From positions 1 to 64,000 of the forward strand of contig JACPOB010000160.1 in assembly GCA_016185145.1 (NCBI GenBank): DNA of 64,000 nucleotides, written 5' to 3'. Below the pieces are notes generated by a model that was not told where the DNA came from, ran no database searches, and worked only from the letters and a program-made list of their open reading frames with translations. The DNA comes from Rhodospirillales bacterium. GTDB lineage: Bacteria; Pseudomonadota; Alphaproteobacteria; Reyranellales; Reyranellaceae. Numbering within the stretch: the first letter of the stretch is position 1; each line of letters opens with the position of its first letter. The position numbers were made by a program, and so were the translations under genes. Shown here piece after piece: positions 2-13,075 of the stretch.

Positions 2-829
2 ATCGCCGCCGTCGAGGCCACCGCGTCGCGCAAGGTGCGCGTACCGATGGGCAATGGCGGCAAGATGATGTGGCACGTCGGGGGGGAGACTTCCGGCAAG
101 CCGATCCTGCTGCTGGTCCACGGCGGCTCGGGCTCGTGGATCCACTGGATCCGCAACGTGCAGCCGCTGTCGCAGCATTTCACGGTCTACGCCTACGACG
201 CGCCGGGGCTGGGCGACAGCGATCCGCCGAGCGACGTGCGCGACGTCTGGTCGGTGACGCATTGCGTCGAGACGGCGATGAAGGAGTTGCTGCCCGCCAA
301 CAAGGATTTCGCCATCACCGGATTCTCCTTCGGCGGCATGGTGGCGGGCCATATCGCGACGCTGTTTTCCGAGCGCATCCGCCGCATCGTCATGGTCGGC
401 GCCGGCGGCCTCAAGGCGACACGCAAGCCCGGTCCGAAACTGCGCAAGCTTCTGGCCGACATGCCGGCCGAAACCCTGGCCGCCGAGGCGCGGCGCAATC
501 TCGAGATCCTGATGCTGCACGATCCTGCCAACGTCGATGGCGTCGCCATCCACATGCAGATCATGAACACCACGCGCGCCAAGACGCGCAGCCGCAACAT
601 GGGGCAGGCCTACAAGCTCAGCGAAGTGCTGCCGCGGGTGAAGGTTCCATTGACGGGCATCTGGGGCGAGTTCGATTCGACCACCTATCCGCACATCCAG
701 GAACGAATCGACCTGTTCCGTGCCCTGCAGCCCGACTTCCAGATGCATGTGATCGAGGGAGCGGGACACTGGGTTGCCTACGAGGCGGCCGAGGCGTTCA
801 ATGAGAAGCTGATACACGTCCTGTCTTGA
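2..829 (+). CDS. alpha/beta hydrolase, 5' end outside the window
   Basis: Alpha/beta-hydrolase fold enzyme of unknown substrate, probably a cytosolic esterase or C-C bond hydrolase. The oxyanion segment LVHGGSGSW is followed by the nucleophile elbow GFSFGG, an acid in WGEFDS and the terminal histidine in GAGHW, so the Ser-Asp-His triad looks complete. The frame is open to the first base of the window. The GTG at 35 has no ribosome site and sits inside what reads as normal coding sequence, so the true start very likely lies upstream and the gene is listed as partial. It is followed by a 24-bp-arm hairpin and then an MBL-fold gene in the same direction. The family is clear; the substrate cannot be read from the sequence. 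Confidence 0.85.
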   Translation: MAAVEATASRKVRVPMGNGGKMMWHVGGETSGKPILLLVHGGSGSWIHWIRNVQPLSQHFTVYAYDAPGLGDSDPPSDVRDVWSVTHCVETAMKELLPANKDFAITGFSFGGMVAGHIATLFSERIRRIVMVGAGGLKATRKPGPKLRKLLADMPAETLAAEARRNLEILMLHDPANVDGVAIHMQIMNTTRAKTRSRNMGQAYKLSEVLPRVKVPLTGIWGEFDSTTYPHIQERIDLFRALQPDFQMHVIEGAGHWVAYEAAEAFNEKLIHVLS

Positions 830-830
830 T

Positions 831-892
831 TCGGACCGCGGGCGTCCCGCCCGCTCACGACTCATGAGGCGGGCGGGACGCCCGCGGTCCGA
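831..892. repeat. palindromic repeat, GGACC family, copy 1
   Basis: Perfect inverted repeat: arms 831-854 and 869-892 (24 bp each) around a 14-base loop. It starts two bases after the hydrolase stop codon. No T-run follows, so it is not a classical intrinsic terminator, though it could slow transcription or protect the mRNA end. The arm begins CGGACCGCG, the same core seen in palindromes near 32.7, 48.3 and 49.7 kb. Confidence 0.85.
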
Positions 893-912
893 ACATGAGA
901 AGTGGAGTCCGC

Positions 913-1629
913 ATGCAAACCGAAGTCTCCGAGATCGCCGACAAGATCTATCGCTTGTCGACCTTCGTCCCCCAGATCGGACCGACCGGCTTCACCTTCA
1001 ACCAGTTCCTGATCGATGCCGACCAGCCGCTGCTGTTCCACTACGGCCAGCGCTCGCTGTTCCCGCTGGTCTCCGGCGCCGTGAAGCGCGTGATCCCGCT
1101 CGACAAGCTGCGCTGGACGACCTGCAGCCACGTCGAGGCCGACGAGAGCGGCGCGCTCAACCAGTGGCTGGCCGCCGCGCCCAACGCCACGCCGGCGCAC
1201 GGCCAGGTCGGCTGCAACATCTGGCTGACCGACATGGCCGACCGGCCGCCGCGCGCCCTGAAGAACGACGAGGTGCTCGACCTCGGGGGCAAGAAGGTGC
1301 GCTGGCTCGACACGCCGCACGTGCCGCACAACTGGGACGCCGGCGTGATCTACGAGGAGACCACGGGCACGCTGTTCTGCAGCGATCTGTTCACCCAGAC
1401 GGGACCGGCGACGCCGACCACGGAGAGCGACATCGTGGGACCGGCGATCGCCGTCAGCGACCGCCTGCCCTACATGCCGCCCACGGCGATGCTCGATCCG
1501 ACGCTACGGCGTCTGGCAGCACTCGAGCCCACGACCATCGCACTGATGCATGGTCCGGCGTTCAAGGGCGACGGTGCGGCGGCGTTGACGGCGCTGGCGG
1601 ATCATTATGCAAAGCAGCCGGCCGGCTAA
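913..1629 (+). CDS. MBL-fold metallo-hydrolase, flavodiiron-like (ODP type)
   Basis: 238-residue single-domain protein of the metallo-beta-lactamase fold, closest by motif to the di-iron oxygen-binding domain of flavodiiron proteins. The metal-ligand pattern is visible: SHVEADE for the usual HxExDH, HVPHNW, CSDLF and the late LMHGP. The last residue of the first motif is Glu where His is usual, so the metal site may differ from the classic one. No flavodoxin domain is attached. The ATG at 913 was chosen because GGAG lies about 8 bases upstream; the ATG at 895 abuts the preceding hairpin. The substrate is unknown. Oxygen or NO reduction is only a family-level possibility. Confidence 0.8.
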   Translation: MQTEVSEIADKIYRLSTFVPQIGPTGFTFNQFLIDADQPLLFHYGQRSLFPLVSGAVKRVIPLDKLRWTTCSHVEADESGALNQWLAAAPNATPAHGQVGCNIWLTDMADRPPRALKNDEVLDLGGKKVRWLDTPHVPHNWDAGVIYEETTGTLFCSDLFTQTGPATPTTESDIVGPAIAVSDRLPYMPPTAMLDPTLRRLAALEPTTIALMHGPAFKGDGAAALTALADHYAKQPAG

Positions 1630-1647
1630 CCACCGTCACGACGGGAT

Positions 1648-2838
1648 TTACGGAGCTCCCTTCAGCCCCAACGACTCCAGATAGCTCCACCGTACCACGC
1701 CGTTCCTGAAACGGATGCCGTCGAGATACTCGGCGATCGCGCGGTCGATCAGTGCCGCGTCGGGCTTGGCCGTACGCTTGCCGTCGGCAAAGGCCACGAT
1801 CTCGTTCCAGCCGTCGGGACGCGGAATGGAGACGATGGTCGAGGGCGTGTCGAGGTTCTTGTAGGTCCAGAACGACCAGCCGATGCCGTGCGCCTCGTGC
1901 AGCTTGCGGAAGCCGGCGTTCCATTCGTCGGTGAGCTCGCCGGTCTCGCCGAGGAACAAAGGCACGTCGTAGCGCGCCGAGAAGTTCAGGTGCCGCTGGA
2001 TCGAATCGCGCTTCGTGCTCGCCCAGAACGAGTGATACGTGTAGGCGAGATTGTCGGTGAAGGGCGTGCCGAACATGTCGAAGCTCGAACTCCACTGCCC
2101 GCCGGCCAGGATCACGACGCGGCCGGGATCGACCTCGCGGATCGCCGCCGTCACCTCCTTGTAGAAGGGCTCCAGCCGCGGATTGAGCGTCGCCACGTCG
2201 TGATAAGGTGCGATCGGCTCGTTCAGGATGTCGTAGCCCAGGATCGCCGGATTGCCGGCATAGCGGCGGGCGATGGCGCGCCACAGCTTCACGGTGAGCT
2301 GCCGGTCGCGCGGCACGTAGAACATCAGGGGATAGCCCGGACCGTCGTCGTGGTTGATGCCGGTCTGGCCGCCGGGTGCGGCGTGCAGGTCGACGATGGC
2401 GAACAGCCCGGCCTCGCGCACCCAGCCCAGGACGCGATCGAGCAGGGACCAGCCCTCGCCCGCGATGTTGCCGTCGGCGTCCATGAACAGCCGGTAGTGG
2501 AGCGGGATGCGCACGGTGTTGAAGCCGACCGACTTGATGAAGGCAACGTCGTCTTGCGTGATGTAGCTGTCGCGGAACTGCCGCCAGAAGGCCTGTGCAC
2601 GCTCGCGGCCCAGCAGGCGGTCGAAGGCGCCGTAGATCTGGCGCGGCGACTTCGCCACCTCGAACTTGAACATGTAGCCCTCGGGCATCAGCCAGTTGCC
2701 GAGGCTGATGCCCTTGATCAGCAACGTGCCGCCGTCGGGCGCGATGAAGTTCCTGCCCTCGATGCGAACCAGCCTGGTGTCGGCCAGCGCCGGAACAGCC
2801 ATCGCCATGAGAACGAGCAAGGTCGATAGGAACCGCAT
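1648..2838 (-). CDS. secreted GH5-family glycoside hydrolase (cellulase-like)
   Basis: 396-residue exported glycosidase. It opens with a typical signal peptide (MRFLSTLLVLMAMAVPALA) and continues as a GH5 TIM barrel: GISLGNWL near the first strand, FNTVRIPLHY, IVDLHAAPGGQ, the acid/base motif YDILNEP, YTYHSFW, and the nucleophile region LFLGETGE. These are the landmarks of endoglucanase/exo-glucanase GH5 enzymes and both catalytic glutamates are present. The frame stays open far upstream, but that extension lies antisense to the next gene and is not coding. The gene is divergent from the pseudo-CHAT operon. Its role is probably breakdown of a beta-glucan outside the cytoplasm. Exact specificity (cellulose, beta-1,3-glucan, mannan) cannot be read. 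Confidence 0.88.
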   Translation of the reverse strand: MRFLSTLLVLMAMAVPALADTRLVRIEGRNFIAPDGGTLLIKGISLGNWLMPEGYMFKFEVAKSPRQIYGAFDRLLGRERAQAFWRQFRDSYITQDDVAFIKSVGFNTVRIPLHYRLFMDADGNIAGEGWSLLDRVLGWVREAGLFAIVDLHAAPGGQTGINHDDGPGYPLMFYVPRDRQLTVKLWRAIARRYAGNPAILGYDILNEPIAPYHDVATLNPRLEPFYKEVTAAIREVDPGRVVILAGGQWSSSFDMFGTPFTDNLAYTYHSFWASTKRDSIQRHLNFSARYDVPLFLGETGELTDEWNAGFRKLHEAHGIGWSFWTYKNLDTPSTIVSIPRPDGWNEIVAFADGKRTAKPDAALIDRAIAEYLDGIRFRNGVVRWSYLESLGLKGAP

Positions 2839-2907
2839 GTCGATCAACGTAGACCAGATCGCCAGGCTTTGAACGACCAATTCTCTCCAGACCGCAGCAA
2901 GTAACGA

Positions 2908-2937
2908 TTGCCCTAAGGAGATGATTGCGTGTAGATT
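2908..2937 (+). promoter_or_regulatory. possible sigma70-type promoter of the pseudo-CHAT operon
   Basis: TTGCCC (2908-2913) and TAGATT (2932-2937) are separated by 18 bases and lie 28 bases before the ATG at 2965. A GGGGGA ribosome site follows at about 2953. The match to consensus is only moderate. The 126-bp divergent gap makes a promoter here likely on position alone. Confidence 0.35.
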
Positions 2938-2964
2938 GATACCGTAGGTTGTGGGGGACAACGA

Positions 2965-5352
2965 ATGGCACGGCCCAAGGCGAAGGGTGACGGTACGTCG
3001 TCGGTCCAGCCGGATCTCGGCGGGGGAACCTACCTGATCTGCTACAGCCGCAGGAGCGGCTATAGCAGCGAAAAAGATGAAAGAGAGGGCTGGTGTCGTA
3101 TTCCGATCATCAGGTCGAGCGACCTGTTGAGGTATCACGCTTTCCGATGGTCTTACCTGATCCGCAACCGCAATCGCTGGGCCTACAAGGATTCGAAGCA
3201 GGCCAACCAGCTGGTTGACGACGCAGTCGCCCTCCTCCTCTGGTTGCTGGGACAGACCGATAGTCCGGACAGGGCCAAAGCCGGAAAGCCGGCAGATTCG
3301 GACATCCTCGAACGACTGGCGAAGGCCGAGATGATCGAGGTCTCGATTCCCTTCAGGGACGAGCCGACGGGCTGGGAGTATCGGATCCTGCCTTGGGAGT
3401 ATGTGCTCTCCGCCGCGACCGAGGCCGTCAGGCGGGCGCCGCTGTTCGTCGTCCGTCATCTTCGCCGCGATCTGCCGCACGGGCAGCCATCGACCAGCGG
3501 CTTCCTCTATGTCGAAGCGGCGCCTGGCAAGCTGAGACAGCAGTACGACTTTGCGTCCGAACGTGCCCTCGGCCATCAGCTCGCCGGCCTGTTGAAGTCT
3601 GATGCCGACTTCGAACAATCCCTGCTGGCCGATCCGACCCTCGACGAGATCGGCGAGGCCGTCCGAAAGCTTCCGCCGAGGACCATTCACATATCCGGCT
3701 TCGACAGTTGGCTCGCGGCGGCCGAACTCAAGGAAGGTGCCTATGCCAAGCTGCACCAGGACGGCTATCTGTTGCGGGATCCGAACAGCGGCTGGGGAAT
3801 AGCCGAAGCCGAGGAGTTCGCCGAACACCTCATCAATCCCAAGGTCCCGCCACGCCTGGTGGCGTTCACCATATTCAATTCGGGCACGCGCTTGGCGGCG
3901 ATGTGCGTCGCCAAGGGAGCGGCCGCCGCCATCGGCTATCAGGATACGTTCGACGCACGCCTGGGCGAGCGGTTCTTCGCCGCGTTCAACCGGGCCTGCA
4001 CCGCCACGGACTGGGATGTCGCCGGCTCGGCGCGGTACGCCTGGGACCTGCTGAAGAACAGCGACGAGCCCCTGACGGGATCGGGCATGATCGTGTGGCA
4101 GGCGCAGTCCATACAAGAGCGCCGGCCGGCGCCGATCCAGGCCATCAAGCAGGCGGTCGAGAAGGCGTTCCACGATTCGAGCGCGGAAGCGACGGTCGGC
4201 GACAGCCTGGAATGGGAAATCAAGCCGAAAGCCGCGATCAACTACTCGACGCTGCATAATCAGGGCGCATTGTTCGATTGCTTCATCCTGAGGCGCAAAC
4301 CCCAGGTAACAGCCGAAATCCGCGGCATTCTCGTGTCTGTCAGGCTGCAGATCGGGCCGCATGCCTATCCGTTCAAGATGAACACCTCGCTTTCGGTGCA
4401 CCAGACCGCCATCGACGTCGCGAAGGACATCGTGATCTCGCTAACGGCGGACCTCGTGCGCGAGCTGCGGGACCACGTGCAGACGACCTTGTTCATAGAA
4501 GTCTCGCACCACGACCATGTCTTCTACTGCCGCACCCATCGCATCATGCTGCTGCCGATCGACCAGTGGGTAGACGACGACGATAACCGTCGGTGGCTGC
4601 CGTCGTTCGTGTTGCCGCGCGATCCGGCCGTGCGACGGATCATCGACATGGCTCAGAAATATCTCGTTGCCTTGACCGATGATCCGGGCGCGGGCTTCGA
4701 CGGTTACCAGAGCGTCGATGTCGACAAGCTCGACAGCGATCCCGACGAGGCCTGCCAATCCGTCGACTTCCAGGTCCGCGCCATCTGGTCGGCCCTTCTG
4801 CTCGATTCGCCGCTGGCCTACATCAATCCGCCGCCGACCTTCACCGACAGCTCGCAGCGCGTCCGCACGCCTTCGGACACGATTTCCGGGCGCCGCGGCA
4901 CCTGCATCGACCTCGCTTTGCTGTTCGCGGCCTGCCTGGAGTACGTCGAGATCCATCCCGTCATCGTCCTGCTCGCAGGTCACGCGTTTCCGGCCTACTG
5001 GCGCCACAGCGACTATCTCGACCGCTTCATGGCCGGACAGGACATCGACCTGCCGGCCAAGGATGACGACCTCGACCCCGACTACGTGTCGGCCTTGCTT
5101 GGCCAAAGCGGTCGATGGAGCCTTGGCAAGGGCTACTACAAGCGGATCATGCAGGTCGTCGACGAGGGCAAGCTCGTGCCCGTCGAATCCGTGATGCTGA
5201 CGACGCGAGACAGTTTTGCCGACTCGGTCGATCAGGGCCGCGAGAATTTTCTGGGCCAGGATGATTTCGACAGCCTGCTCGACATCAATCGTGCACGCAC
5301 CGACCCGGCGCAACCCGTCACGCCGCTGCCCATTCGGAGCGAAGAAGCATGA
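2965..5352 (+). CDS. pseudo-CHAT / transglutaminase-like two-domain protein
   Basis: 795-residue soluble protein with no signal peptide or membrane segment. Residues about 130-370 follow the CHAT (caspase-like) pattern: a strand ending IHISGF (H242-F246), then LVAFTIFNSGTRLA, GAAAAIGY and FFAAFNRA. The catalytic GHG histidine and NAC cysteine positions both read Phe (F246, F304), so this half looks catalytically dead. Residues about 600-795 resemble the transglutaminase-like domain found in DUF4011-type helicase proteins: GTCIDLALLFAACLE (C647), LLAGHAF (H673), VPVESVMLT (E741), a plausible Cys-His-Glu triad. The middle (about 390-560) is unrecognised. The stop overlaps the hydrolase gene by four bases. 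Codons such as ATA, CAT and AAA are commoner than in flanking genes, which hints at acquisition. A conflict or defence role is inference only. Confidence 0.72.
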   Translation: MARPKAKGDGTSSVQPDLGGGTYLICYSRRSGYSSEKDEREGWCRIPIIRSSDLLRYHAFRWSYLIRNRNRWAYKDSKQANQLVDDAVALLLWLLGQTDSPDRAKAGKPADSDILERLAKAEMIEVSIPFRDEPTGWEYRILPWEYVLSAATEAVRRAPLFVVRHLRRDLPHGQPSTSGFLYVEAAPGKLRQQYDFASERALGHQLAGLLKSDADFEQSLLADPTLDEIGEAVRKLPPRTIHISGFDSWLAAAELKEGAYAKLHQDGYLLRDPNSGWGIAEAEEFAEHLINPKVPPRLVAFTIFNSGTRLAAMCVAKGAAAAIGYQDTFDARLGERFFAAFNRACTATDWDVAGSARYAWDLLKNSDEPLTGSGMIVWQAQSIQERRPAPIQAIKQAVEKAFHDSSAEATVGDSLEWEIKPKAAINYSTLHNQGALFDCFILRRKPQVTAEIRGILVSVRLQIGPHAYPFKMNTSLSVHQTAIDVAKDIVISLTADLVRELRDHVQTTLFIEVSHHDHVFYCRTHRIMLLPIDQWVDDDDNRRWLPSFVLPRDPAVRRIIDMAQKYLVALTDDPGAGFDGYQSVDVDKLDSDPDEACQSVDFQVRAIWSALLLDSPLAYINPPPTFTDSSQRVRTPSDTISGRRGTCIDLALLFAACLEYVEIHPVIVLLAGHAFPAYWRHSDYLDRFMAGQDIDLPAKDDDLDPDYVSALLGQSGRWSLGKGYYKRIMQVVDEGKLVPVESVMLTTRDSFADSVDQGRENFLGQDDFDSLLDINRARTDPAQPVTPLPIRSEEA

Positions 5353-6689
5353 GCGGATCCTCTCTACCAGATCTCCCTTCGGTACTGAACTCGATCCAGG
5401 CCGACTTGGCCAAACTCGGCATGTCGGCCACCATGCAGCCCGCCGCACAGCCAGCGTCAGGCGGCACACGGAAGGCCGTGGTTCGGCGCCGTGGTCGAGC
5501 GATGAGATTGGGCGAGCAAAAAACCGTCGTCCGGCTCATTCGACAGAGCGACGGCCTGCTGATTTGGCATCCGGGTCCGATCGGCCGGCCGATTGCCACC
5601 GGACGGCGGCGTGTGCTGCGCGCGGCGGCGCCCACGCCGCCTGGCCAGGTCGTCGAGATGTATCGCTACGATCTTCTGACGCACAATCAGATCAACGACC
5701 TGGTGATCAAGACAGACAAGCTCCTGACGGGCGAGCAGTTGGGCCTGCTAAGGCTCGCGCCGACAGGCGACTCTTTCATGCCCGTCGACACAGTGGAGCA
5801 GACCGGACCTCGACTGCTTGTCGTCCACGGCACTTTCAGCAATACGGAAAAGATGCTGAAGGGATGCGATCCTGCATTCCTTCAATGGGCTCGGCAAAAG
5901 TACGGTGGACGCGTCTATGCGTTCAATCATCCGACGCTGGCCGTCAGTCCAATGATGAACGCATTCGACCTCTGGCGCGTATTTCGCGACGTCGAAGGCG
6001 ATCTCGACATCGTCGCCCACAGCCGCGGCGGACTCGTCGTGCGCTGGTTCCTCGAGGCCTTGGGCCCACCCAAACTCGCCCGGGTCCGCGCAGTGCTCGT
6101 CGGCTCTCCCTTGGGAGGCACCAGCCTCGCTGCGCCACGCCAGTTGCGGGACGCCCTGAGCGCAATCAGCAGCTTCGCGTCTGCCATCAGCCAGGGCGCC
6201 GGTGCCTTGGCGTCCGTCGGTGGGCCATGGCTGGCGGTGCCGGCGATGATGGTGCAGATCGGATCGTCCGTCATCGGCAAGACCGTGCAAGTCGCAGCCG
6301 ATCTGCCCATTCTGGATGCCGTGATCTCGATGGTGCCGGGCCTCTCGGCGCAGGCGCGCATCAACGGCAATCCCGAGATCAGCCGCCTGCACGGCATGCC
6401 CGATCGAACGACACTGCACTATTATGGCATCACCTCGAATTTCGAGCCAACCGATCCAGGCTGGAAGTTCTGGCAGCGGCTGCGGCGGACGAACCTCGCC
6501 GACACGGCCGCCGATTGGATCTTTCCCACAGAGAACGACATGGTGGTCGATACCGGCTCGATGTCCGAACTCGGCATCGGGCGCTTGTTGCGCGACTTCC
6601 ACAGCTACGGCACTAACCCCGACGTTCATCATCTCAACTACTTCGTCAATCCGACGACAACACAGAGCATCAGGAGCTGGCTGCCCTGA
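5349..6689 (+). CDS. alpha/beta hydrolase (lipase-like) coupled to the pseudo-CHAT gene
   Basis: 446-residue cytosolic hydrolase. An N-terminal region of about 150 residues of unknown fold precedes a lipase/esterase core: LLVVHGTFSN (oxyanion), YAFNHPTL, the elbow IVAHSRGGLV with nucleophile S225, VGSPLGGTSLA, and late acid and His candidates in TENDMVVDT and DVHHLNYF. Such cores occur next to CHAT proteins in many bacteria, in families that act on lipids or on unknown partners. The start ATG at 5349 overlaps the upstream stop (ATGA), so the two proteins are probably made in similar amounts and work together. Hydrophobic stretches around residues 275-330 could contact membrane or form a lid. 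The substrate is unknown. Confidence 0.75.
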   Translation: MSGSSLPDLPSVLNSIQADLAKLGMSATMQPAAQPASGGTRKAVVRRRGRAMRLGEQKTVVRLIRQSDGLLIWHPGPIGRPIATGRRRVLRAAAPTPPGQVVEMYRYDLLTHNQINDLVIKTDKLLTGEQLGLLRLAPTGDSFMPVDTVEQTGPRLLVVHGTFSNTEKMLKGCDPAFLQWARQKYGGRVYAFNHPTLAVSPMMNAFDLWRVFRDVEGDLDIVAHSRGGLVVRWFLEALGPPKLARVRAVLVGSPLGGTSLAAPRQLRDALSAISSFASAISQGAGALASVGGPWLAVPAMMVQIGSSVIGKTVQVAADLPILDAVISMVPGLSAQARINGNPEISRLHGMPDRTTLHYYGITSNFEPTDPGWKFWQRLRRTNLADTAADWIFPTENDMVVDTGSMSELGIGRLLRDFHSYGTNPDVHHLNYFVNPTTTQSIRSWLP

Positions 6690-6757
6690 TCTGCAGAGGG
6701 CGAACAAGAACTTCTGCGATTCCGTCCTGAGCGGAAAGACTCTAGGGTCCTTCCGCC

Positions 6758-7948
6758 ATGCTCCTCGCCTCTCTCCTCGTGCCGATCGCCGTGCTCGCGA
6801 TCGTGTTCCTGGTCCAGCGCCTGCATCTTCCAGCGTTCCTCGCCATCATGGCGACGGTCGTGGTCTACGGCATCGCGGCCGACATGACGTTCATGTCGGT
6901 CGGCAAGGCGTTTGGCCTCGGCTTCACGGCGGCGATCGAGCAAACGGGCCTGTTGGTGGTCGCGGGCGCGCTGGTCGCCGCCCTGGTGCTGCGTCAGCCG
7001 CTCGGCACCGGCACGGCGGCGGCCGCGGGCGCGCTGGCGGGACTCGGCGCCTCGGCCACGGGCGGCCTGGCGCTGCTGCAGCCGGCCGGTCAGGACGCGC
7101 CGCGTCGCGCGCTCGGCCTCGCCCTCACCCTGCTCGCCTTCGCGGCGCTCGCGACGCCCTCGCCGCTCGCCGTCGCCGCGGCGTCGGTGATGAAGATCCC
7201 GCCGCGCACCATGGCCATGGTCGGCCTGCCGCTCGCCGCAATCGCCGCCATGATCGGCTGGTGGCACGTCTCGCGCCAGGTGCCGGCGAGCACGATGCCC
7301 GGCCGCATCGGCTGGGCGTGGCTCGCCGTCGCGATCCCGATCGGCCTGCTGCTCGTGCAGGCGGTGGCGCAGATGCCGAGCGAGCCGCTCGGCAAGGGCG
7401 GCGCGCGCGAGTTCTATATCGGCATCTCCAAGCCGCTGATGCTGGCGGCCATCGCCATCACGCTCGGCGTGCTGTTCGCCGGCAAGTGGCAGCCGTCGGC
7501 GCTGGCCGGGCGCGGCTGGGCACCGCTGCTGCTGGCCGTGGGCGCGGCCGGCGGCCTGAGCCGCGTGTTCGACGAGACCGGCATGGCCGAGCTTCTGGCA
7601 GAAGCTGCGATCCATCCGCGCTACGGCATCCTCACGCCGTTCCTCGCCGCAGCCATCGTCAAGACCATGCAGGGCAACTCGCTCACCGCCATCCTCACCG
7701 CCTCGGGCATGGTCGAGCCGATGCTGCCCGCCCTCGGCCTCGACAGCACCATGGGCCGCACACTGGCCGCCGCCGCGGTGGGCGCGGGCTCGATGGCGAT
7801 CTGCCACGTCAACGATCCGTTCTTCTGGATCGCCGCCGCCATGGCGCGGCTGTCACCGGGACGTGCGCTGTATGTGATCTCGCTGGGCAGCGTGGTGATG
7901 GCGGTCGGCGCGCTGGTGGTGCTGGCGGCGCTGCGGCAGTTCTTGTAG
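6758..7948 (+). CDS. GntP-type gluconate/organic acid permease
   Basis: 396-residue integral membrane protein with about 11-12 hydrophobic helices, starting MLLASLLVPIAVLAIVFLV. The layout and the late segments LTPFLAAAIVKTMQGNS, GAGSMAICHVNDPFFWI and ISLGSVVMAVGAL match the GntP/CitM-like carboxylate permeases, which import gluconate-type sugar acids with protons. It is somewhat shorter than the usual 430-460 residues. It stands alone, with no kinase or regulator beside it, so the substrate is open. Its last 96 bases overlap the 3' end of the convergent DNA ligase gene. Confidence 0.78.
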   Translation: MLLASLLVPIAVLAIVFLVQRLHLPAFLAIMATVVVYGIAADMTFMSVGKAFGLGFTAAIEQTGLLVVAGALVAALVLRQPLGTGTAAAAGALAGLGASATGGLALLQPAGQDAPRRALGLALTLLAFAALATPSPLAVAAASVMKIPPRTMAMVGLPLAAIAAMIGWWHVSRQVPASTMPGRIGWAWLAVAIPIGLLLVQAVAQMPSEPLGKGGAREFYIGISKPLMLAAIAITLGVLFAGKWQPSALAGRGWAPLLLAVGAAGGLSRVFDETGMAELLAEAAIHPRYGILTPFLAAAIVKTMQGNSLTAILTASGMVEPMLPALGLDSTMGRTLAAAAVGAGSMAICHVNDPFFWIAAAMARLSPGRALYVISLGSVVMAVGALVVLAALRQFL

Positions 7949-8971
7949 GCGCATCTCGCGCGTCAATCGCGACGGCCGGGCCTCGCGCTGAAGCTGCTCC
8001 ATGGTGCATTGGCGCGGCAGCTTGTCGGGACGCCAACGTACGAAACGCGTGCCGTGGCGGAAGCGCTGTCCCGTCACATGATCGTACTGCACCTCGACGA
8101 CCAGCTTCGGCTCGAGCGGCTCCCATTGGCCACTGCGTTCGGTCGACCAACGGCTGGGACCTCCCGGCGCGCCACCGGTGAAACCGGGGCCGCCGCGCAA
8201 CTTTTCGAGCCTGCGAGTCAGCGCCGGCCGCTCGGCATCGGATATCGCCGACGTGAAGCCGACATGATCGAGCAGACCCTGATCGTCGTAGAGGCCGAGC
8301 AACAGTGAGCCCACCTGCCTGCCGGCGGTGGCGTAGCGGAAACCGCCGACGACGCAGTCGGCCGTGCGCAGGCGCTTGATCTTGAGCATGGCCCGCTCCC
8401 CCGCGCGATAGGGCTCGTCGAGCCGCTTGGCGACCACGCCGTCGAGCGCGCCGCCGCCGGCGCGCGCCAGCCAGCGTATCGCTTCCGCGCGCCGCGTGGT
8501 CGCGGGCGACAGACGCAGCCGGAGCGCATCGCCGATACGGCCAAACAGCTGCTCCAGCGCCGCACGCCGTTCGATCAACGGCCGCCCGCTGACGTCGGCA
8601 TCGGGCGTGCGCAATACATCGAACGCGATCAGCAATGCCGGCGTCTCGGCGGAAAGCTTCGCGATCCTGCTCGCCGCCGGATGCAGGCGCATCTGCAGCG
8701 CCTCGAACGACAGCACCTTCCCGACAGGGACGACGAGCTCACCGTCGATGGTGAGATGCCGAACCGGCAGCTTGGCGAGGGCGGCAACGATCTCGGGGAA
8801 ATAGCGGGCCAGGCTCTTGCCCGACCGGCCCATCAACTCGACCTCGGCGCCGTCGCGGCTCGCCAGGCAGCGAAAGCCGTCCCATTTCGGCTCGAATTGC
8901 CAACCCTTGTCGCGCGGCAGCTCACCGACCTGCTGCGCTTCCATCGTCGCCCGAGGAACAGCCCTTGCCAT
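7853..8971 (-). CDS. ATP-dependent DNA ligase (LigC/LigD ligase-domain type)
   Basis: 372-residue ligase that would seal DNA nicks using ATP. The adenylation motif EPKWDGFR places the nucleotide-accepting lysine at about residue 29. IDGELVV, LIAFDVLR, DGVVAKRLDEPYRAG and MLKIKRLRTADCVVGGFRY follow as motifs III-V, and an OB-fold tail carries RPKLVVEVQY-like sequence (here PKLVVEVQYDHVTG). Such stand-alone ligases accompany Ku in bacterial end joining or act in base-excision repair, but no Ku or primase gene is visible here. The ATG at 8971 is the first reasonable start, and the ribosome site is weak. The 3' end runs 96 bases into the convergent permease gene, and the last 25 or so residues are low-complexity Arg/His/Gln. 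Confidence 0.87.
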   Translation of the reverse strand: MARAVPRATMEAQQVGELPRDKGWQFEPKWDGFRCLASRDGAEVELMGRSGKSLARYFPEIVAALAKLPVRHLTIDGELVVPVGKVLSFEALQMRLHPAASRIAKLSAETPALLIAFDVLRTPDADVSGRPLIERRAALEQLFGRIGDALRLRLSPATTRRAEAIRWLARAGGGALDGVVAKRLDEPYRAGERAMLKIKRLRTADCVVGGFRYATAGRQVGSLLLGLYDDQGLLDHVGFTSAISDAERPALTRRLEKLRGGPGFTGGAPGGPSRWSTERSGQWEPLEPKLVVEVQYDHVTGQRFRHGTRFVRWRPDKLPRQCTMEQLQREARPSRLTREMRLQELPQRRQHHQRADRHHHAAQRDHIQRTSR

Positions 8972-9057
8972 CACGTGGCAACGACAAAGCTGCATGGCCG
9001 TTGCGGCAACCCGCGTACCTGCGAGGCGTTGGCTCCGAAACGGCCCAGGAGTACGTG

Positions 9058-9267
9058 ATGCGAGGCTCGACCATCGATCAAGTGCGCCACGACATCGACG
9101 CGGCCCATAACGGCGAGACGGTATCCGAGCAGATCGATGCCGCGGAGAAGGCGGCGGGGCTGCAATCCATGCACCCACCGCAGCCGGCGTCGGACCACGG
9201 ATTATGGTTCGCCATCGGCGCCGGCCTCTCCACCGCGGCCATCGCCGTGGCGCTCGCGGTGACCTGA
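9058..9267 (+). CDS. small membrane protein, unknown function
   Basis: 69-residue protein: a polar N-terminal part starting MRGSTIDQVRHDIDAAHNGE, then a single C-terminal hydrophobic helix (LWFAIGAGLSTAAIAVALAV). An AGGA ribosome site lies 7 bases before the ATG at 9058, which supports this start over an upstream in-frame ATG at 8965. It is divergent from the ligase gene. Short proteins with a VRHDID-like N-terminus are frequent in alphaproteobacteria but have no known role. Confidence 0.6.
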   Translation: MRGSTIDQVRHDIDAAHNGETVSEQIDAAEKAAGLQSMHPPQPASDHGLWFAIGAGLSTAAIAVALAVT

Positions 9268-9271
9268 CGCA

Positions 9272-10252
9272 TCAATCCAGCTTCACACCCGACGCCTTGA
9301 CGACGGGAGCCCATAGCTTGCGGTCCTCGGCCAGGAACTTGTCGAAGCCGGCGCGGCCGGGCGGCGGCATGTCGAGGCCGAGATCGTCGGCCCAACGCTT
9401 CTGGATCTCCGGCTGCTTCATGGCCTCGGCGATGGCGGCTTCGAGCCTGGCCAGGATCGGCTCGGGCGTGCCGGCCGGTGCGCCGACGCCGTACCACGAC
9501 GTGGCGACGTAGCCCGGCAACGTCTCGGCGATGGCCGGGATGTCTGGTGCCGCCTTCGACCGCTCGGCGGAGGTCACGCCCAGGCCCTTCAGCTTGCCGC
9601 CGCGCACCTGCGGCAGCATCGACGGCATGTTGGCGAACATCATCTGGACCGTGCCGGCGATCAGGTCGTTGTAGGCGGGGCCGGCTCCCTTGTAGGGCAC
9701 GTGCACGATGTCGACGCCTGCCATGGTCTTGAACAGCTCGCCGCTGAGATGCAGCGACGTGCCCGGGCCCGACGAGGCGAAGGAGTACTTGCCCGGCTCC
9801 TTCTTGCAGAGCGCGATCAGCTCGGCAACGGACTTGACCGGCAGCGACTCCGGCACGCCCAGGAGGTTCGACAGCACGGCGACGCGAGAGATGCCGACGA
9901 TGTCCTTGTCGGCGTCGTAGGGCAGCTTGCTGTAGAGCATCGGGTTCAGCGTATGGCTGGCGACCGTTATCAGCCCGATCGTGTAGCCGTCGGGAGCGGC
10001 GCGCGCGAGCTCGGCGGTGCCGATGTTGCCGCCCGCCCCACCCTTGTTGTCGACCACGAACTGCTGGCCGAAGGTGCGGCCGAGCTGGTCGCAGATCAGG
10101 CGGCTCACCGTGTCGGTGCCGCCGCCCGGCGCGAAGGGCACGATGAAGCGCACCGTCTTTGCCGGCCACTGGGCCTGCGCCTCAGCGGCGAAGCCGCGCG
10201 CCACCATCGGCGCGGCAATCGAAGAAGCAAGCAGACCGCGTCTCAGCATCAT
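9272..10252 (-). CDS. Bug-family (TctC-like) periplasmic solute receptor
   Basis: 326-residue periplasmic binding protein. A leader with hydrophobic core ends at about AEAQAQ. The mature part has the Bug signature: VRFIVPFAPGGGTDTVSRL, the VVDNKGGAGGNIG loop, ASSGPGTSLHLSGELF, HVPYKGAGPAYNDL and GVGAPAGTP. These proteins bind small carboxylates such as tricarboxylates, nicotinate or terephthalate. No TctAB membrane genes are adjacent, which is usual for this expanded family. The start ATG at 10252 has GAGGAAAC immediately upstream. It is divergent from the MFS gene at 10292, which could transport a related acid. The ligand is unknown. Confidence 0.92.
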   Translation of the reverse strand: MMLRRGLLASSIAAPMVARGFAAEAQAQWPAKTVRFIVPFAPGGGTDTVSRLICDQLGRTFGQQFVVDNKGGAGGNIGTAELARAAPDGYTIGLITVASHTLNPMLYSKLPYDADKDIVGISRVAVLSNLLGVPESLPVKSVAELIALCKKEPGKYSFASSGPGTSLHLSGELFKTMAGVDIVHVPYKGAGPAYNDLIAGTVQMMFANMPSMLPQVRGGKLKGLGVTSAERSKAAPDIPAIAETLPGYVATSWYGVGAPAGTPEPILARLEAAIAEAMKQPEIQKRWADDLGLDMPPPGRAGFDKFLAEDRKLWAPVVKASGVKLD

Positions 10253-10291
10253 GTTTCCTCGTTCTCTTCGTTCTTCTAATAATGCCATGAC

Positions 10292-11758
10292 ATGACCGAC
10301 CCGCCGCGTAGCGTCCAGAGCTACATCGACCAAACGCCCGCCTGGCCCGACGGCACCCCCACAGGCTTCATCCCGATGACCGCCATGCAGTGGCGGATCT
10401 GGCTGCTGGCCTCGGCCGGCAAGTTCTTCGAGGGGCTGGTCGTGTTCATGACCGGCGTGGCCTTGCCGCTGATTGTGAAGGATTTCGGACTCTCGCCTGC
10501 CGAAAAGGGCATCGTCAGCGCCGCCCCTCTGGCCGGCATCATGGTCGGCGCCATCACGCTGGGCGGCCTGGCCGACATCTACGGCCGCCGCCGCATGTTC
10601 GTGGTCGAGATGGTGGTGTTCGCCCTGTTCCTGACAGGGCTGACCTGGAGTCCGAGCTACGGCTGGCTGGTCGTGTTCCTGTTCGGCGTCGGCCTGGCGC
10701 TGGGCTGCGACTATCCGACGGCGCATCTGGTGATCTCCGAGAGCATCGCCAGCAAGGATCGCGGCAAGCTGGTGCTGAGCGCCTTCGCCTTCCAGGCGAT
10801 CGGCGCGCTGGTCGGCACCGTCGTGGGTTTCGTCATCCTGTCGGAACTGCCCGAGATCAGGGCTTGGCGCTGGATGTACGCCACGGCCATCGTGCCGGCG
10901 ATCCTGGTGGTGCTGGGCCGGCTCAGGATCAGCGACAGCGGCCACTGGCTGATGAGCCAGGGCCGCAAGGCCGAGGCCGAAGCGGAGGTCGCGCGCCTGC
11001 TCGAGCGCGAGCCGCCCTACCCGAAGGAAGTGCGCCTGATCGACCCGTCGGCCGCCGGTCAGGGCACGGCGGCGCGCGGGCGCCGCGCCGGCGGCTGGCG
11101 CGATCTCTTCGTGCTGCCCGGCCGGCGCGCCACCATCCTCGCCTCGGTGCCATGGTTCCTGCAGGATCTCGGCACCTACGGCATCGGCATCTTCACGCCC
11201 ACCATCCTGGTCAAGGCGATCGGGCATGAGAACATGTCCGACAACAACATCAGCGCCCTGATCGCGCGCGACATCCTGGCCGCCAAGGGTGCGGCCCTGC
11301 TCGATGTGCTGCTGATCGTCGGCATCCTGGCCGCGGTGCTGCTGGCCGACCGGCTCGGCCGCATCCGCCTTCAGATCGCGGGCTTCATCGGCTGCGCGAT
11401 GGGGCTGGGCCTGGCGACCCTGTCCCTGCATACGCCCGAGCCGACGCGCACCGTTCTGCTGTTCGGCGGCTTCATGCTGTTCAACTTCATGACCAACGTC
11501 GGCCCCAACGCGCAGACCTATCTGCTGGCCGGCGAGGTCTTCGCGACGGAGGTCCGAGGCAAGGGTGCGGGCTTCGCCGCCGCCTTCGCCAAGGTCGGTG
11601 CGGTCATGACGGCTTTCCTCTTTCCGGTGCTGTTGGCCGACATCGGCGTCGATCTGCTGCTCATGATCCTGATCGCGAGTTCCCTGCTCGGCGCCTGGGT
11701 GACCTGGCAATTCCGCATCGAGACGACCGGCGTCAGCCTGGAGAAGATCGGGCGGTAG
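10292..11758 (+). CDS. MFS transporter, sugar/aromatic acid type
   Basis: 488-residue 12-helix major facilitator. The classic loop 2-3 motif appears as GGLADIYGRRR, and loop 4 carries GCDYPTAHLVISE, typical of the AAHS and sugar-porter-like branch that imports aromatic or aliphatic carboxylates with protons. A long central loop (about residues 220-270) is charged. It is divergent from a Bug receptor, 39 bases apart. The gene ends just before a 14-bp-stem hairpin (11776-11805). Substrate not determined. Confidence 0.87.
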   Translation: MTDPPRSVQSYIDQTPAWPDGTPTGFIPMTAMQWRIWLLASAGKFFEGLVVFMTGVALPLIVKDFGLSPAEKGIVSAAPLAGIMVGAITLGGLADIYGRRRMFVVEMVVFALFLTGLTWSPSYGWLVVFLFGVGLALGCDYPTAHLVISESIASKDRGKLVLSAFAFQAIGALVGTVVGFVILSELPEIRAWRWMYATAIVPAILVVLGRLRISDSGHWLMSQGRKAEAEAEVARLLEREPPYPKEVRLIDPSAAGQGTAARGRRAGGWRDLFVLPGRRATILASVPWFLQDLGTYGIGIFTPTILVKAIGHENMSDNNISALIARDILAAKGAALLDVLLIVGILAAVLLADRLGRIRLQIAGFIGCAMGLGLATLSLHTPEPTRTVLLFGGFMLFNFMTNVGPNAQTYLLAGEVFATEVRGKGAGFAAAFAKVGAVMTAFLFPVLLADIGVDLLLMILIASSLLGAWVTWQFRIETTGVSLEKIGR

Positions 11759-11775
11759 ACGCCGCCACGCCTCAT

Positions 11776-11805
11776 CGGAGCGCGGACCTCCAGGTCCGCG
11801 CTCCG
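11776..11805. repeat. short hairpin repeat with GGACCT core (terminator-like position)
   Basis: Perfect 14-bp stem (11776-11789 and 11792-11805) with a two-base loop, 17 bases after the MFS stop codon. There is no T-run. A second small palindrome (GCGCCACT/AGTGGCGC) follows at about 11819-11836. The same arm sequence forms the outer arms of the composite repeat at 49706-49865. Confidence 0.7.
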
Positions 11806-11863
11806 GAAGACCATGACCGCGCCACTGGAGTGGCGCGCCTCCAGCCCGTAGCCTGTGGCCTCA

Positions 11864-13075
11864 ATGAACGGGCCGATCGGGGAACTGCTCAAGACACCGG
11901 ACTTCCTACGGCTGTGGCTGGTGGGTGCGTTCGCCAACGCCATGCGCTGGCTGGAGCTTCTGGCCTCCGGCCTGTTCGCCTACGAGGCGACGGGCTCGGC
12001 GCTGGCGGTGACCGCCGTCGTGGCGGCGCGCCAGCTGCCGCAGCTCCTGTTCGGTGCGTTCGCAGGCGCTGTCTCCGAAGCGATGAACCGCAAGACCATC
12101 GTCATGTTGGCGCTCGTCGTCCCGGCGTTCGTCTCGACCGTGCTGGCCACGCTCGCCACCACCGGAGAACTCGCGCTGTGGCATGTGGCGCTGGGCAACC
12201 TGGTGTCGGGCACGATGTGGGCGACCGAGATGTCGACGCGGCGGCGCATGGTGGGCGAGGTCGCCGGGCCGCATCGCATCGTGCCGGCGATCGCGCTCGA
12301 TTCGGCGACCAACGCCGCCACCCGCATGGTCGGCCCATTGCTGGGCGGCATCGTCTTCGGCTGGCTCGGCATGAAGGGCGCCTACACCCTCACCGCCCTG
12401 GTCCAGTTCGCCGGCGCCTTCGCCCTCGCCGGCCTCGTCCATCCGCAGGTCGCGCGCCGTCTCGACCTCGCGCGCATCCCGGCCGAGATCGCCGAGGGCC
12501 TGGCCTACGCCTGGACCACCAAGCCCACCATCCTTTTGGTGTGGGGCATCACGGTCGTCACCAACGCCTTCGCCTTCGCCTATTCCGGCCTCGTGGCGCC
12601 CCTCGGCATCAGCGCCTTCCACGTCTCGCCCGCCCTGGTCGGGTTGCTGGCGGCGGCCGAGCCGATCGGCGCGCTGGTCGGTGGCGCGCTGATCGCCGCC
12701 GGCGTCGTGCGCATGGACCGGCGCCTCACCTTCGCCGGCGGCTCGGCGTTGTTCATGGTGGCGTTGATCGTGATGGCGCTGTCGCCGTCCTATTGGCTGG
12801 CCTTCGCCGTGCTGGTGCTGGGCGGCTTCGGCACTGCGGGCTTCGGCAACATGCAGACCACCCTGATGCTGACCGAAGCGCCGCCGGATATGCGCTCGCG
12901 GCTGATGGGCATCGTCACGGTCGGCATCGGCACCGGGCCGCTCGGCGTACTGGCGGCGGGCGTGATCGCCACCGAGTTCGGACCACGCACGGCCGTGCTG
13001 ATCATGGCCGTGACCGGACTGCTGCTCACCGCGGCGCTGACGATATGGCTGCGGCGGCGCGCGTCCGGCTCCTAG
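11864..13075 (+). CDS. MFS transporter, EntS/MFS_3-like exporter
   Basis: 403-residue major facilitator with 12 predicted helices. LLKTPDFLRLWLVGAFAN at the start, MNRKTIVMLALV in place of the loop 2-3 motif, and the GFGTAGFGNMQTTLM helix match the MFS_3 group (enterobactin exporter-like proteins), which mostly export small molecules. The ATG at 11864 is preferred over an in-frame GTG at 11855; no strong ribosome site is visible for either. It stands alone, so the substrate is unknown. A member of the dispersed repeat D begins 6 bases after the stop. Confidence 0.83.
   Translation: MNGPIGELLKTPDFLRLWLVGAFANAMRWLELLASGLFAYEATGSALAVTAVVAARQLPQLLFGAFAGAVSEAMNRKTIVMLALVVPAFVSTVLATLATTGELALWHVALGNLVSGTMWATEMSTRRRMVGEVAGPHRIVPAIALDSATNAATRMVGPLLGGIVFGWLGMKGAYTLTALVQFAGAFALAGLVHPQVARRLDLARIPAEIAEGLAYAWTTKPTILLVWGITVVTNAFAFAYSGLVAPLGISAFHVSPALVGLLAAAEPIGALVGGALIAAGVVRMDRRLTFAGGSALFMVALIVMALSPSYWLAFAVLVLGGFGTAGFGNMQTTLMLTEAPPDMRSRLMGIVTVGIGTGPLGVLAAGVIATEFGPRTAVLIMAVTGLLLTAALTIWLRRRASGS

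Follow-up and report, generated by a model that had tools for sequence, protein, structure and literature searches.

According to PMC7159879, a caspase domain in VMAP conflict systems always has an alpha/beta-hydrolase gene beside it, with transglutaminase-like peptidases occurring there as a rare alternative, and PMC8195603 counts alpha/beta hydrolases as effectors that hydrolyse membrane lipids. The cassette described here was found in a 64,000-nucleotide stretch of Rhodospirillales bacterium DNA (the window) and consists of gene 1 (2965..5352, plus strand; 795 aa), in which a pseudo-CHAT, a beta-sandwich and a transglutaminase-like domain are joined, and gene 2 (5349..6689, plus strand; 446 aa), which encodes a DUF7379 lipase-fold alpha/beta hydrolase and overlaps the gene 1 stop in an ATGA. 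A caspase-superfamily domain and an alpha/beta hydrolase side by side are common to the cassette and to the MoxR-vWA (VMAP) systems of PMC7159879. The cassette is unlike them in that its caspase-superfamily domain is dead, its transglutaminase-like domain is fused and only two genes are involved; no MoxR, vWA or VMAP gene was seen in the two-gene insert (flanks read by eye).

Gene 1 also differs from the caspase-like proteases SAVED-CHAT, Csx29/TPR-CHAT (Craspase) and separase: every aligned row lacks the catalytic His and Cys, a beta-sandwich and a transglutaminase-like domain are attached, and the two-gene insert showed no CRISPR partner. With ProA (NF058533) and other DUF4011 helicases such as Hhe, gene 1 has in common the N-terminal region of those proteins, including its Cys, His and Glu. 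Gene 1 is unlike these proteins in giving no Pfam hit to DUF4011, helicase, MTES_1575 or DUF3320 domains and in scoring 165 bits against 1500. A literature search (subscription papers and preprints outside its scope) returned nothing on DUF7379, on an inactive CHAT or on a dead-CHAT/transglutaminase pairing, and the cassette looks like a seemingly undescribed variant of bacterial protease-and-hydrolase conflict modules.

The CHAT half of gene 1

Homologues were collected by protein search (23 proteins including the window's own; best 8000 candidates scored) and by genome scan (87 loci confirmed, 80 kept), and were aligned in 105 rows (109 minus three spuriously aligned pieces and one duplicate). 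All features of gene 1 given below lie on the plus strand. Its N-terminal region (residues 11-170; 2995..3474) probably forms the first of two lobes in a caspase-like arrangement, and an invariant PWE at residues 143-145 aligns with the IPWE of a DUF7379-CHAT fusion (L126, below). It is followed by a CHAT lobe without catalytic residues (residues 178-389; 3496..4131), in which F246 (3700..3702) and F304 (3874..3876) align with the CHAT catalytic His and Cys positions. Alignments to Csx29, gingipain, separase and DdvA, of which the ranges only were used, cover residues ~11-386. A beta-sandwich resembling an alpha-2-macroglobulin domain (residues 414-532; 4204..4560) and a transglutaminase/PNGase-like domain (residues 538-784; 4576..5316) complete the protein.

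A confident fold other than CHAT, which the preliminary description had named as an outcome that would overturn its assignment, was not returned when the fold comparison was run: the profile match to 8tl0 and the model fold both placed this part in the caspase/CHAT fold. A chance likeness to CHAT was ruled out by the same two results and by Pfam hits in 22 of 61 members. Pfam CHAT (PF12770) itself gave no match to the window protein at E<=1, the gathering score not being reached, and the separately encoded CHAT of a split Bradyrhizobium gene 1 scored 18.2 bits against a cut-off of 24. The Pfam matches in gene 1 were confined to the transglutaminase-like DUF553 (18.5 bits, under the cut-off of 20.5), and PADLOC models gave no match at E<=1 to either gene.

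Position 246 was occupied by a letter in 101 rows (F 44, V 30, M 11, L 6, I 6, C 3, Q 1) and by His in none of them. Position 304 was occupied in 100 rows (Y 44, W 28, F 11, H 7, C 5, others 5); the CHAT dyad is found in no row, because the five rows with Cys304 carry V or Q at 246. The CHAT pattern with F246 and F304 had been reported in the preliminary description from the single protein; its details were confirmed and extend family-wide, and homologues with the CHAT His and Cys, sought as a refutation, did not turn up among the aligned rows. By this alignment, in which the window protein and its family alike are without the catalytic His and Cys, gene 1 is not a CHAT protease. An active site moved by one residue (Cys303 in some rows) was considered and is unsupported, because His at 246 is absent from every row.

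Columns conserved at 90% or more in the CHAT lobe include H242, G245, D247, D266, G267, S306, R309 and D327. Median dN/dS, drawn from 66 related, non-independent pairs, was 0.21 for the CHAT half (59 usable comparisons) and 0.11 for the transglutaminase-like part (63), and by this measure the CHAT half is under purifying selection. The conserved columns and low dN/dS together suggest that the dead domain has been retained for some purpose. A local quirk or pseudogene as the origin of the Phe substitutions was ruled out by the family-wide conservation and by dN/dS.

The transglutaminase-like half and its ProA relatives

A transglutaminase/PNGase-like fold was found for the C-terminal half of gene 1; Foldseek matches to PNGase were weak (E 0.03-0.05), and no PDB sequence match was obtained at E<=10. 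The Cys-His-acid triad was assigned from conservation. C647 (4903..4905), the predicted nucleophile, is present in 99 of 99 rows, H673 (4981..4983), the predicted base, in 98 of 99, and E741 (5185..5187), the predicted third triad residue, placed from the alignment rather than from coordinates, in 95 of 97 and also in two ProA N-termini. Three departures were seen, two of them in one frameshifted homologue (P0013) and the third a single Asp. In P0013 the transglutaminase-like part is out of frame, as in a decayed copy or through a sequencing error.

Residues 449-687 matched positions 22-244 of the NCBIfam profile 'anti-phage protein ProA' (NF058533) at E 1.5e-48, and a weaker match extended to 322, so that a ProA transglutaminase-like N-terminal region is recognised in gene 1. 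The full-length score was not reached (165.2 bits against the equivalog cut-off of 1500; profile 22-322 only) and Pfam gave no DUF4011, helicase or nuclease hit, and judged by these profiles gene 1 is not a ProA. The C-terminal half matched 76 plasmid records; among the 30 matches listed, nearly all of the annotated ones are DUF3320, DUF4011 or helicase proteins. At 2190 and 1978 bits, two of the plasmid-matched proteins exceed the cut-off of 1500 for a full ProA; DUF4011, helicase-type AAA and MTES_1575 domains are present in them, and their alignments to gene 1 show identical Cys, His and Glu. The intact-looking C647-H673-E741 triad and the connection to DUF4011 proteins, both proposed from the single protein, hold on this evidence, the triad as a prediction that is kept across the family and the connection through ProA/DUF4011 proteins aligning with the same Cys, His and Glu. 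No paper on the origin of the name ProA was found (search scope as above).

A Rhizobium plasmid (L090:1-13715) encodes a full-length ProA, upstream of which are genes with the annotations multiubiquitin, ThiF family, DUF6527, DNA repair exonuclease and YhaN family. Phage records gave one match, over part of the transglutaminase-like half only; carriage of gene 1 by phages was considered and is not upheld by this single partial match.

The downstream hydrolase and the mobility of the pair

Gene 2 scored 98.6 bits against DUF7379 (PF24096; gathering cut-off 33) and has an alpha/beta hydrolase fold with the expected Ser and His: S225 in HSRGG (6021..6023, plus strand), the predicted nucleophile, is kept in 71 of 71 rows and H428 in 70 of 71. 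A hydrophobic cap as proof of membrane insertion was dropped, because the same hydropathy threshold fires on the gene 1 core; the cap is merely charge-poor (12% vs 21%). A homologue of this hydrolase lies directly downstream of gene 1 in 69 of 80 loci, and in 47 of the 69 its start overlaps the gene 1 stop in frame. Distances within gene 1 and within the hydrolase correlate at 0.95 (63 loci; raw distances, shared genome ancestry included) and at 0.68 over 1824 pairs below 50% identity (maximum of 1000 shuffles, 0.11). On these comparisons gene 1 and gene 2 are coupled and co-inherited.

Because the hydrolase adjoins gene 1 in 69 of 80 loci, the unit is taken to be a two-gene module and not one protein. 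The preliminary description had treated gene 1 by itself and overlooked gene 2 at 5349-6689. Its proposal that the C-terminal half is the enzyme stands as regards the kept triad and fails as regards exclusivity, given the lipase-fold hydrolase downstream. Overall its interpretation is partly supported, a sensor or scaffold role for the dead CHAT and activity of the C-terminal half being still proposals. Its question whether a hydrolase always follows is answered positively for 69 of the 80 loci; of the other 11, five end within 435 bp of gene 1 (L005, L028, L054, L057, L059).

Among the remaining exceptions, each other partner being known from one contig, a DUF7379 gene lies upstream of gene 1 instead at L058 (183.8 bits). 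At L023 a caspase-like gene with GHG and DAC by eye starts 24 bp downstream, scores below both cut-offs (Pfam 17.8 of 21.4 bits, NCBIfam 22.3 of 140) and is followed by a gene with hydrolase motifs by eye and no family hit. At L075 the partner is a CHAT (46.7 bits vs 24) with its His and the NAC Cys present, followed by nSTAND1 (22.1 of 27.1 bits, below cut-off), and the contig end cuts the partner. At L011 (10297-11832) an HEAGH metallopeptidase-like gene (M36, 18.7 of 23.3 bits) lies 122 bp downstream, in the lipase's usual place, and may represent another exchange of partner. At L032 and L063 no partner of gene 1 could be recognised.

In six Bradyrhizobium loci gene 1 is split into a CHAT and a beta-sandwich/transglutaminase-like gene with an in-frame ATGA junction (6/6); the nearest relatives are fused, and fission is therefore the simplest reading. 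At L033 a Tle1-like phospholipase gene (11516-12778; PF09994, 6e-39) follows 26 bp past the DUF7379 hydrolase, so that this locus has two lipase-type genes.

The cassette occupies an inserted stretch with approximate borders 2793..6752 that relatives of the genus lack at this site: six of them align with the window up to 2757-2792 and again from 6753-6754. The flank genes (by eye a glycoside hydrolase and a permease) were compared in the 56 of 64 relatives that carry both on a single contig; in all 56 they are divergent direct neighbours separated by 33-345 bp, against 3919 bp in the window. No mobility gene was found within the two-gene insert, and no terminal repeats were recognised around it. 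A full-length copy occurs in 1 of 65 genomes of the genus, the window's own (up to 14 candidates scored per genome); G057 gave a short weak match. Gene 1 and gene 2 are thus present as one insert in the window's genus, which the sequence comparison suggests is moving horizontally.

A tree made by a quick method covers six phyla (Pseudomonadota, Planctomycetota, Acidobacteriota, Gemmatimonadota, Myxococcota and Verrucomicrobiota) and contains sister pairs that cross phyla, L003 and L009 for example; as both are MAGs, misbinning is possible for that pair.

Proposed function and related CHAT fusions

The anatomy is strong; the trigger, the substrate and an anti-phage role are inferences. The main reading, held tentatively (probability about 0.42), is of an autonomous, mobile two-gene protease-lipase effector module, with a regulating or docking role for the dead CHAT and with the cutting taken over by the transglutaminase-like domain. 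In its favour are the folds, the lost dyad beside the kept triad, purifying selection on the CHAT half, the coupling and co-inheritance of the two genes, their patchy presence as one insert, the spread over phyla, the other partners, the DUF7379-CHAT fusions, the split loci, and the match of the transglutaminase-like half to the N-terminal part of a family to which NCBI gives the name anti-phage. Against it count the other partners being single contigs, the loci with no recognisable partner, the weak PNGase matches and the neighbourhood results below. The dead CHAT would not cut and would still fold and bind; as the regulatory or docking half, it would detect a signal of infection or stress and keep hold of the lipase. 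On the trigger, the transglutaminase-like thiol peptidase would be released to cut a protein, most likely the lipase or its restraint, and the lipase would then harm the membrane of the infected cell and kill or stall it. A narrower form is rather doubtful: the pair would be a so far undescribed mobile cell-suicide system in which the dead CHAT, as the allosteric half, reads the signal for a live transglutaminase-like protease, and this protease activates a membrane lipase. In animals, a pseudo-caspase and an active protease share labour in c-FLIP and caspase-8; the cell-suicide form would resemble that pair and would have arisen by a protease swap with the dead one kept.

PADLOC models were run on 134 neighbouring proteins (two genes on each side of 41 loci, once 30 near-duplicates and proteins outside 100-1100 aa had been set aside). 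Hits included PD-T4-6 kinases, mad genes, LmuA and Avs1a, and no family was hit more than 3 times (mad2 3, mad8 2, the others listed 1 each; raw counts, 25 of 74 families listed). A defence-island signature was accordingly rejected, with no recurrent neighbour family at the 41 loci by raw counts, as was a fixed third gene, for example the sigma factor beside L065, since neighbours vary between lineages. These results, together with 20 neighbours scanned with Pfam that proved mixed and mostly metabolic or transport genes, and with a Roseateles/Pelomonas group in which 13-14 loci have one common neighbourhood, unlike a fast-moving defence gene, favour a stress-response or lipid-turnover module with no part in phage defence, whose likeness to conflict systems would come from shared domains only. 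Such a module sits poorly with the patchy, clean insertion in the window's genus, the transfer between phyla and the relatives from conflict-system families, and is considered somewhat improbable.

Gene 1 might alternatively be a keeper that binds, restrains or folds the lipase in the manner of a toxin-antidote pair, its transglutaminase-like domain processing or destroying a lipase that is the sole effector. Tight coupling and co-inheritance, the order of restrainer then effector, and a recognisable partner being absent only at L032 and L063 would all suit it; a dedicated lipase keeper could poorly tolerate a caspase-like or CHAT gene in the lipase's place, as seen at single loci, and gene 1 does occur without a partner, which makes a keeper unlikely. 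Transglutaminase-like folds are not always proteases, and PNGase is an amidase. The domain could be an enzyme other than a peptidase (amidase, deamidase or cross-linker) with some component of the cell as its target, the lipase acting in parallel, in keeping with PNGase and transglutaminases as the nearest solved folds and with a literature search that found no described activity for the ProA N-terminus. The alternative partners and fused CHATs look like proteases, and PMC7159879 and PMC8195603 put such domains among conflict-system peptidases; this non-peptidase reading is judged distinctly improbable.

If the protease-lipase module is the right reading, the family is a natural experiment in which a caspase-fold protease has turned regulator, with the dyad lost and the fold, conserved residues and purifying selection kept. 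Through gene 1, moreover, the transglutaminase-like N-terminus of DUF4011 anti-phage helicases, itself uncharacterised, is linked to a small protein suited to expression and assay, and DUF7379 lipase-fold proteins are indicated as effectors under CHAT-type control. With two genes, ~3.9 kb and a range of at least six phyla, the module is therefore directly testable.

DUF7379 scored over cut-off in 9 of 249 genomes of the phylum, the window's among them. The four strongest other hits (L123-L126) were read, and in 4/4 the open frame with DUF7379 also contains His and Cys motifs of CHAT type, these calls being motif-based and the L126 Cys being read by eye. DUF7379 stands there in one frame with a CHAT-type domain; unlike gene 1, the fusions have the CHAT His and Cys motifs. 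L126 aligned to gene 2 at E 1e-24 and to the CHAT half of gene 1, its His falling at 246, its Cys falling at 304 and the PWE being shared (hhalign probability 32%, E 4.8e-4). An active-looking CHAT fused to DUF7379 and the L126 alignment point to a protease swap. An active CHAT and DUF7379 would have formed the ancestral pair, and proteolysis would have passed to a ProA-type transglutaminase-like domain.

At L126 (2722-9103), three successive minus-strand ORFs encode a CHAT-like protein (HFIGHGG, VVLNSCSG), a protein of 540 aa that by eye looks like a membrane protein, and the 1121-aa DUF7379-CHAT fusion with its His and Cys motifs. The L123 fusion is a 2006-aa ORF (4437-10457) in which a CHAT-type His/Cys pair occurs along with two alpha/beta hydrolase motifs; just before this ORF lie two ORFs with caspase-like motifs (79-3066, minus strand; 3111-4379, plus strand), and L124 and L125 have ORFs of comparable size with CHAT motifs. 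The window's own genome contains one other CHAT match (G000:C92:79231-80115; 143 bits, cut-off 24), in a 1444-aa open frame.
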